Shown: piece after piece, positions 23,198-25,833 of the stretch
Numbering within the stretch: position 1 is the stretch's first letter
Layout of the letters: every line of letters starts with the position of its first letter
Source of the DNA: Acidobacteriota bacterium
Lineage (GTDB): Bacteria > Acidobacteriota > HRBIN11
Reading direction: 5' to 3'
Length of the DNA: 32,927 nt
NCBI GenBank assembly: GCA_030550225.1
Contig: JAUQPV010000004.1
Location: 1-32,927 of the forward strand
The notes under the pieces: model-generated
What the model saw: only the letters and a program-made list of their open reading frames with translations
Database searches by the model: none
Told to the model about the DNA's origin: nothing
Position numbers and translations under genes: made by a program

Positions 23198-23231
23198 CCC
23201 AGTCCCAACGCCCAGCACCCAACACCGACTT
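23198..23231 (-). repeat. Degenerate heptanucleotide repeats in inverted orientation (CCCAGT CCCAACG CCCAGCA CCCAACA CCGACTT)
   Basis: Shares CCCAGCACCCAACACC with the 16667-16736 array; abuts the rsmH stop codon. Confidence 0.7.
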
Positions 23232-24228
23232 AACCCGTTCCCCCAGGCCACGAGACCCGAGGCTTAGGCTCCCGGTACACCAGGTCCCGAAACCGGACGG
23301 GCGCTAACTTCTCGATGACCCGTAGACGGGCGCTTCGCGACGCCGGATTCTGCCGGACTTCCGCCCGATCCGGCCGCTCCGGCTTCGGCGTCAAAACCCT
23401 ACCAAGGGGTTGACCTTCACATACACAAACCCCAACCTGGGGTTCACACCGACACGGTAAGGCCAGCCGATGAAAGATGCGCTTGACGACTCGGTCTTCC
23501 AGACTGTGGTACGCCAGGACGGCCAGGCGACCGCCGACCCGAAGGACGTGAAAGGCGTCGACGAAGAAGACGTCCAGCCCCTCCAGCTCCCGATTCACGG
23601 CGATCCGTAGGGCCATGAAGACTCGCGTGGCCGGGTCTGTCCGACCCCGACGGCGGACGACGCTCCGCACGATCTCGGCCAGTTGAGTCGTCGTCGTGAT
23701 GGGCTCCCGCTTCCGGGCTTCCACGATGGCCCGAGCGACGGCCTCGGCCCGGGGCTCTTCTCCATACTCCCGAAAGATCCGCACGAGCTCCTCGAAAGAC
23801 CGCTGGTTCACGATCCGCTCGGCCGTCTCGGCGTCCCAGGGATTCATCCGCATGTCTAAGGGGCCTTCCTGTTCGAAGCTGAAGCCCCGACTCGGGTCTT
23901 TCAATTGGTCCATGCTGATGCCCAGGTCGACCAGGACGGCGTCGACGAGGCCGAGGGGCGCATGGGACAGGGCGATCTTCAAAATGTGCCGAAAGTCTTC
24001 ATGCACGTATGTAACCCGGTCACCCCACTCGGCGAGCCGCTGACGGGCCCGTCGCAGGGCCTCGGGGTCCCGGTCGACGGCGATCAGGCGGTCGGCCCCG
24101 GCCCGGAGGAGGGCCTCGGCATGGCCGCCCGAGCCGACGGTGGCGTCGATGACGACCGAACCTTCACCCAGGACGGGGCGCAGGTAGTCAACGACCTTCT
24201 CCCGTAACACCGGCTGATGCAGAAACAT
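23230..24228 (-). CDS. rsmH: 16S rRNA (cytosine1402-N4)-methyltransferase RsmH (MraW)
   Basis: MFLHQPVLREKVVDYL, 'DATVGSGGHAEALL', 'VDLGISMDQLKDPSRGFSF', 'LAYHSLEDRVVKRIF'. Confidence 0.96.
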   Translation of the reverse strand: MFLHQPVLREKVVDYLRPVLGEGSVVIDATVGSGGHAEALLRAGADRLIAVDRDPEALRRARQRLAEWGDRVTYVHEDFRHILKIALSHAPLGLVDAVLVDLGISMDQLKDPSRGFSFEQEGPLDMRMNPWDAETAERIVNQRSFEELVRIFREYGEEPRAEAVARAIVEARKREPITTTTQLAEIVRSVVRRRGRTDPATRVFMALRIAVNRELEGLDVFFVDAFHVLRVGGRLAVLAYHSLEDRVVKRIFHRLALPCRCEPQVGVCVCEGQPLGRVLTPKPERPDRAEVRQNPASRSARLRVIEKLAPVRFRDLVYREPKPRVSWPGGTG

Positions 24229-24279: not shown

Positions 24280-24756
24280 TTATACCGAAATCTTCTGAAT
24301 CTGCCGGACCAGCTCGGGCGTCCAGGGAACCTGCGCCTGAAAGGCCTCCAGCAAGTCTGGGTTCCAGACCTGTATCGTGTTGAAGTATCCGACGAGGACG
24401 ACCCGGGACGACAAACGGGCATAATCCCGCAGTTCCGACGGGATCAGGATACGGCCCTTATCGTCCAGCTCCGTCTCGACGCCCTTGGTATTCAGGCGGT
24501 GCATGAGGGCCATCTTTTGCTGGGGGTCGATGTCGGTCTGGAGACGGATTTCGGCCTCGATGGTCTCCCACACGGGCAGGGGATAGATGACGATATGAGG
24601 GAATTCGAGCAGGAAACTCTGGGTGACGAACACCTGGGTCCCGTAGTGTTCCAGGAGGCGCTTGCGGAAGTTGGTCGGGACGACCATCCGGCCGGCGGTA
24701 TCGAACTGGGTCCACCCGGCGCCCCGAAAAAACACGTCGGTGCGAGGCCTTTCCAT
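24280..24756 (-). CDS. mraZ: Transcriptional regulator MraZ
   Basis: Two AbrB-like motifs 'FDTAGRMVVPTNFR' and 'DDKGRILIPSELRDYA'. Start 24756 preferred; ATG 24786 also possible but sits at the predicted TSS. Confidence 0.92.
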   Translation of the reverse strand: MERPRTDVFFRGAGWTQFDTAGRMVVPTNFRKRLLEHYGTQVFVTQSFLLEFPHIVIYPLPVWETIEAEIRLQTDIDPQQKMALMHRLNTKGVETELDDKGRILIPSELRDYARLSSRVVLVGYFNTIQVWNPDLLEAFQAQVPWTPELVRQIQKISV

Positions 24757-24790
24757 GCTGTCCCATTCTTTCCCAAAACGTCCCATCCCA
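24751..24790 (-). promoter_or_regulatory. Putative MraZ operator: 10-bp-phased TGGGA repeats
   Basis: On the - strand, TGGGA at 24785-24781, 24775-24771 and 24765-24761, and TGGAA at 24755-24751, each separated by 5 nt; extra TGGGA at 24790-24786. Confidence 0.8.
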
Positions 24791-24819
24791 ATTATAGGCC
24801 CCCGCCTCCTGGTTGTCAA
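24791..24819 (-). promoter_or_regulatory. Consensus sigma70-type promoter for mraZ/dcw (TTGACA-17-TATAAT)
   Basis: - strand TTGACA (24819-24814), 17-nt spacer, TATAAT (24796-24791), immediately upstream of the TGGGA repeats. Confidence 0.85.
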
Positions 24820-24920
24820 ACTATATTCGAGGGGAAGGATAAGGATAGGAAAAAGAGGCAAATAAAAGACAAAAATTTGGCAAATATCGATCCCCGTGTT
24901 CGCCCTCGATCGCCCCGGGT

Positions 24921-25003: not shown

Positions 25004-25833
25004 ATGAACTCATCTCGTCGACTTCCGATGGAACGTTGCGAGGCGGGCGGTGGTGTTTTCCCAAATCTCCTTAGAGAACTGTCTTCACGCAGTGGCGAGC
25101 CCTGTTCGAAGCCCAAGGCGCTCGTGAGCTGCATCTTCCCCTCTTAGTCTCCTGGGACGACCTGGACCGACCCGTCCGGATCCTCTGGCAATCGGCCCCC
25201 AAGGTCGTCGACGGTCAGGGTCGTGTCTTCGTCCTGCGGCCCGAGATAACCGTCCAGATGGCCCTGACCGAGCGAAAGGCCGGGACCCGACGCCTGTACT
25301 ATATGGACCGGGTTTTTCGTCTCCGGCCGGGCGGGGCGATTGCGGAGTTCCTCCAGGTCGGTCTGGAGATCCTGGAGCCGGACGACCGGGCCTGGGAGAC
25401 CCTCCTGGAGGTCGCCGTCCAGAGTTTACGGGTCCTGTCGCCCACGTTCACGCTGGACATCGCCCATCGAGCCCTTCAGGACCAGCTCCCGTCGGAGCCC
25501 TGGAATTTAGCCGAGATGGCCGTCGACCCGACCGTCGTCCGGGGACGGGCCGAGACGCTGCGATGGATGGAGCAATGGGGCATCGGGACGTCTGAACAGC
25601 GGGCCCGGTTGGCTGTCTGGGTCGAGCGTTTTGCCCCTCACGTCGTCATCGACCTCACGATGAGTCCCCTGTTCCCGTATTACACGGGCTGGCTCTTAGA
25701 AGGCTTCGTGGATTTTCTCCCCCATGAAGTTTTGCGAGGCGGGGAGTACGTCATCGGGTCGACTTACGGGATGGGTTTTGCGATGGAGTTTCCCTATGAT
25801 GCGCTTAGCCCTTTCGAAGGGTCGACTCCTTGA
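25004..25833 (+). CDS. hisZ: ATP phosphoribosyltransferase regulatory subunit HisZ (HisRS-like), with apparent 1-nt frameshift near 25070-25100
   Basis: N-terminus in one frame (MNSSRRLPMERCEAGGGVFPNLLREL), remainder in another (VFTQWRALFEAQGARELHLPLLVSWDD...GRVFVLRPEITVQMAL...PYYTGWLLEGFVDF...GGEYVIGSTYGMGFAMEF). HisRS-like motifs LRPEIT, YYTG and GGxY. The listed ORF starts only at 25258. Confidence 0.75.

Follow-up and report, generated by a model that had tools for sequence, protein, structure and literature searches.

The region upstream of mraZ in this acidobacterial genome raises the question of what reads a series of TGGGA repeats set at 10-bp steps behind a consensus promoter, and whether the merging of the last repeat with the start codon has consequences for translation. 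The window, i.e., the whole stretch of DNA analysed here (32,927 nucleotides), derives from a member of a small class of Acidobacteriota (5 genomes in our class set). The identity of the gene as mraZ, presumed in the preliminary description, is borne out: PF02381 is matched in two stretches (79.8 bits, cut-off 23), and the gene heads a dcw cluster with the order mraZ, rsmH, an ftsL-like gene, ftsI, and murE (coordinates in Table 1). Each of the two MraZ domains carries the motif D-x-x-G-R, with DTAGR and DDKGR aligning with DSKGR and DGAGR of E. coli. The score lies below the NCBIfam equivalog cut-offs, and the protein is therefore a divergent MraZ; no other MraZ-like gene was detected in the genome. 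A literature search found no paper on MraZ structures, though the PDB holds MraZ chains.

Table 1. Features of the mraZ locus in the window, ordered 5' to 3' on the minus strand.
Feature	Position	Strand	Evidence or remark
T-rich conserved block 5' of -35	24820..24905	-	aligned in all three congeners
Predicted -35 element, TTGACA	24814..24819	-	sequence; identical in both congeners
Predicted -10 element, TATAAT, 17 nt from -35	24791..24796	-	sequence; identical in both congeners
Extra TGGGA, out of phase, adjoins box 1	24786..24790	-	read as a possible G-rich discriminator beside -10
Putative MraZ box 1, TGGGA	24781..24785	-	10-bp phase; kept in congeners
Putative MraZ box 2, TGGGA	24771..24775	-	10-bp phase; kept in congeners
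Putative MraZ box 3, TGGGA	24761..24765	-	10-bp phase; kept in congeners; weak anti-SD pairing
Putative MraZ box 4, TGGAA, over start codon	24751..24755	-	10-bp phase in all three congeners
Four GGG tracts fitting a G-quadruplex motif, loops 2, 7, 7	24762..24789	-	present in all three congeners
Probable mraZ start codon ATG, its TG = TG of box 4	24754..24756	-	silent third-position changes begin there
mraZ coding sequence, 158 aa	24280..24756	-	PF02381, 79.8 bits; 35% identity to E. coli MraZ
rsmH (mraW), second dcw-cluster gene	23230..24228	-	TIGR00006, 289 bits, cut-off 154

The promoter, the three TGGGA units at exact 10-bp spacing and the TGGAA variant at the fourth phase over the mraZ ATG all match base for base what had been described, with the earlier promoter coordinates correct on the minus strand. 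The boxes are separated by the spacers CGTTT (boxes 1 and 2), AAGAA (2 and 3), and CAGCA (3 and 4). The array follows the predicted -10 element and would lie over the transcription start, which is predicted near 24784 from promoter spacing only. None of 300 dinucleotide shuffles of the upstream region gives a chain of four TGG cores with an exact 10-bp period. A box pair with one mismatch is by itself not rare (4 found in the window versus 3.6 expected). The pattern TGGGA-N5-TGGGA-N5-TGGGA, on the other hand, occurs without mismatch only once in the 2.79-Mb genome, namely in the mraZ array, and its single match with one mismatch is an overlapping register of the same array. All further three-box matches (9) carry two mismatches; neither these nor four further exact TGGGA-N5-TGGGA pairs make up a convincing array that would mark other MraZ targets in the genome.

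The preliminary description had proposed the conservation of the phasing in relatives as a check, and this was run at two levels. Within the genus three sequences are compared, the window and the congeners G001 and G002. The -35 and -10 elements, the four phased boxes and the ATG are kept in both congeners, while the promoter spacer varies; box 4 is TGGAG in one congener, with the 10-bp phase kept in all three. For the phylum, mraZ upstream regions were pooled from 30 other acidobacterial families, one genome each. Here TGG pairs at a distance of 10 bp occur 51 times versus 2.9 ± 1.7 in shuffles (the largest of 200 shuffles reaches 8), followed by 28 pairs at 20 bp and 15 at 30 bp, whereas distances of 9 and 11 bp yield 1 and 2 pairs, respectively. 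The controls for the 10-bp distance give 5 pairs on the complementary strand and 7 in the coding region. Outside the genus the box unit is mostly G-TGG-A/T, and in many families the array begins a few bases after a recognisable -10 element. By a looser rule, a phased array is present in 59 of 63 families, a count that lacks a separate shuffle control and calls for caution.

In L045 (genome G004, family f3, of the same class as the window) six GG dinucleotides stand at exact 10-bp spacing upstream of mraZ, only one of them within a TGG; this array, next to the start codon, looks degenerate. Two genomes of family f20 (G025 and G037) harbor two MraZ-like genes adjacent in tandem, approximately 290 bp apart. 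The listed genomes of genera g35 (G040, G104, G113, G140 and others, family f22) and g69 (family f32) yield no MraZ match. These genomes are mostly 97-100% complete, and other genera of both families have MraZ; in g35 and g69 the gene has probably been lost or has diverged beyond detection.

Sequence, position, and the phylum-wide 10-bp phase make it very likely that the array is an operator. Operators of this type show at least two to three direct TGGG/GTGG repeats with a 10-bp period upstream of mraZ, and here there are four. We assign a probability of about 0.9 to the reading that the array is the MraZ operator of the dcw cluster, with binding and repression taken over by analogy from other bacteria. 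MraZ would bind the four boxes, which follow each other at intervals of one helical turn and face the same side of the DNA, along a stretch that begins near the predicted transcription start and ends at the start codon. The bound protein would then sterically block RNA polymerase at the promoter and in the initially transcribed region, resulting in repression of the transcription of mraZ itself and of the downstream genes. As the fourth box (A-TGG-AA) would form the start codon, operator, leader, and start codon would be one piece of sequence. MraZ is known to repress its own cluster in E. coli and M. genitalium (PMC8475190). Repression is not certain here, since the effects of MraZ differ between bacteria: in M. 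gallisepticum, as reported in PMC8475190, overexpression of MraZ raised FtsZ.

The architecture corresponds closely to known systems. The MraZ operator of E. coli at Pmra is due to Eraso et al. (2014, J Bacteriol 196:2053, as relayed by PMC7761207 and PMC8475190). In the E. coli genome (NC_000913.3), GTGGG boxes repeated every 10 bp likewise begin immediately after a TTGACA-type promoter, and the mraZ gene behind them heads the dcw cluster. E. coli has three boxes, however, the last of which is separated from the ATG by about 22 nt that include a GGGGTGAGG stretch, whereas the acidobacterial array reaches and overlaps the ATG and leaves no fitting strong Shine-Dalgarno (SD) sequence. In B. cenocepacia, MraZ shifts an operator fragment in EMSA, and the mapped transcription start is overlapped by the boxes (PMC7761207). 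The promoter PmraBc also carries, 3' of its -10 element, four repeats in 10-bp steps (there 7 nt with 3-nt spacers), but its transcription start lies 100 bp upstream of the mraZ start codon, and the boxes are clear of that codon (PMC7761207). The Mollicutes site, given as AAAGTG[T/G] direct repeats (Fisunov et al. 2016, as cited in PMC8475190), similarly places direct GTG-containing repeats in the mraZ promoter region, with the difference that its box sequence is AT-rich.

The preliminary description also listed an additional TGGGA abutting box 1. The element is present, but its reading as a fifth operator box is rejected: its GGG precedes box 1 by 5, 6, and 6 bp in the three congeneric species, which places it outside the helical register of the array, although the GGG itself is kept. 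The motif may be better read as a G-rich promoter discriminator directly after the -10 element. Region 1.2 of sigma-A binds optimally when GGGA occupies -6 to -3 (PMC10232725); as the GGGA of the window lies one base further downstream, we infer such a discriminator with corresponding caution.

Upstream of the promoter, the T-rich block can be aligned among the three congeners, and the sequence further upstream is not alignable in G001. The block contains a direct repeat, TATTTRCC (24886-24879 and 24864-24857 on the minus strand, 22 bp apart), whose variable base in the two copies reads G/G (window), G/A (G001), and A/A (G002). The block with its repeat is a possible UP element or a possible site for a second regulator. 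On the plus strand a HisZ-like ORF, whose first ATG is at 25258, stays open in frame further back until a TAG near 25072. Translation of this extension is protein-like (RTVFTQWRALFEAQGARELHLPLLVSW), ATG, GTG, and TTG are all absent in between, and G002 has similar DNA at this place; the extension may point to an unusual start codon or to a misread frame.

The overlap of operator and start codon depends on where translation of mraZ begins. Three candidates are in frame, ATG 24786, ATG 24756, and GTG 24735. With the first the mRNA would be near-leaderless, and the last stands directly before a conserved FFRG, in accordance with many relatives and E. coli, whose start lies directly before (F/L)RG; in either case the operator would be devoid of the true start codon. 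Both are disfavoured by the substitution pattern among the three congeners. ATG 24786 is CTG in G001, and all 5 variable sites in the 30 nt before 24756 (24786-24757) fall on codon positions 1 or 2 (positions 1/2/3 = 4/1/0), whereas the seven codons spanning 24756 to 24735 contain 4 variable sites, every one a silent third-position change (0/0/4; Fisher p = 0.008 for this contrast, with few sites from three congeneric sequences). Because the coding signature begins at 24756, we consider both alternatives unlikely; on these few sites, translation probably starts at the ATG that overlaps box 4, which agrees with the earlier view that the operator fills the leader and overlaps the start codon. 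The earlier statement that an obvious classical SD sequence is missing likewise stands. The nearest SD-like stretch is the GGGA of box 3, 4 nt before the ATG, and the best anti-SD pairing upstream of ATG 24756 amounts to -4.2 kcal/mol, weaker than the mean background of the window (-5.3) and compared with -10.3 for rsmH and -10.7 for ftsI. These energies use an E. coli-type anti-SD, assumed since a search of the assembly found no 16S gene. The box over the ATG together with the absence of a strong SD had led to the suggestion that MraZ or the array also controls the initiation of translation directly. This suggestion is not supported: MraZ is an AbrB-like binder of double-stranded DNA (PMC7761207), for which reason the overlap on the DNA does not by itself act on the mRNA, and the predicted RNA structure of the leader is no more stable than that of shuffled sequences (z = +0.81; 156 of 200 shuffles at least as stable), so that an RNA structure in the leader beyond the level of shuffles is dismissed as well. 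Both results leave direct translational control without support, and we regard it as extremely improbable. What we infer instead is a passive possibility, weak initiation from a constrained leader of approximately 28 nt that lacks a strong SD.

A different interpretation is that the conserved element is a DNA G-quadruplex (G4) on the non-template strand that controls mraZ, with the TGGGA boxes as its G tracts. Each of the three congeners has four GGG tracts that satisfy the canonical motif (loops of 2-3, 7, and 7, within the canonical limits), and the E. coli mraZ leader fits it too. In S. aureus, PmraZ similarly has several G tracts downstream of the mraZ promoter, where a G4 has been shown to fold and to affect expression. 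The respective paper, published in 2025, assigns the control of S. aureus mraZ to this structure and reports the motif in mraZ promoters of other bacteria; the term 'MraZ box' is absent from it (PMC11796246). The 7-nt loops, however, are an automatic result of placing TGGG boxes at 10-bp steps: a GGG tract and a 7-nt loop add up to 10 bp, and hence the array doubles as a G4 motif. A quadruplex does not need a 10-bp period. Moreover, the motif is found in 0 of 47 mraZ loci of other Acidobacteriota families, which keep the phase, mostly with GTGGA boxes. As related families keep the phase with boxes of only GG, and thus without GGG tracts, it is the phase that is conserved, which fits a protein that reads a single DNA face. 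A quadruplex as the conserved element is therefore very unlikely in our estimation, if less so than direct control of translation. The acidobacterial data leave the reality of the S. aureus G4 unchallenged; mutation of the G tracts there would also alter any MraZ boxes.

Returning to the array as an MraZ operator, the position of the start codon inside it appears to recur. In seven other families (f2, f7, f36, f54, f56, f61, and f62) the sole ATG or GTG between the first box and (F/L)RG is the RTG of a phased box, and the mraZ start would lie inside that box as the only possible ATG or GTG. In five families (f24, f27, f29, f57, and f66) candidates occur in the array only, with more than one start codon there or with one also out of phase; the remaining families have a usual start outside the array or both kinds of candidates. 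We note that any run of three boxes puts an RTG into each reading frame, because 10 equals 1 modulo 3. An in-frame start within a box is thus given by geometry and its phase is no independent evidence; the argument for the seven families rests on the absence of any other start codon. A tentative proposal, which we hold to be possible rather than probable, is that in many families of the Acidobacteriota the MraZ operator and the mraZ start are one element: the RTGG array would supply the start codon, and weak initiation would inherently restrain MraZ synthesis, in addition to the transcriptional feedback. No prior description of an operator merged with a start codon was found in a literature search that missed key MraZ papers. 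The operator type as such is already known; its merging with the start codon, a modest and testable variation, appears to recur across the phylum.

A separate observation concerns one of the further box pairs of the genome, in L034, where TTGACA and then TGGGA-N5-TGGGA (1483-1514) stand a short distance 5' of a gene that probably encodes an outer-membrane protein, by eye of the OmpP1/FadL type. The pair is a weak candidate for a second MraZ site.

The results extend the MraZ box code to the Acidobacteriota with a clear phase signal. Where the operator overlaps with the start codon, a layout that appears to be recurrent, operator and translation start would be unable to evolve independently. 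The analysis also exposes a confound, in that TGGG boxes at 10-bp spacing always resemble G-quadruplex motifs. Altering the G tracts in the manner of the S. aureus G4 work would at the same time change any MraZ boxes present there. The two ideas can be told apart in families with GTGGA boxes, which makes the question testable.
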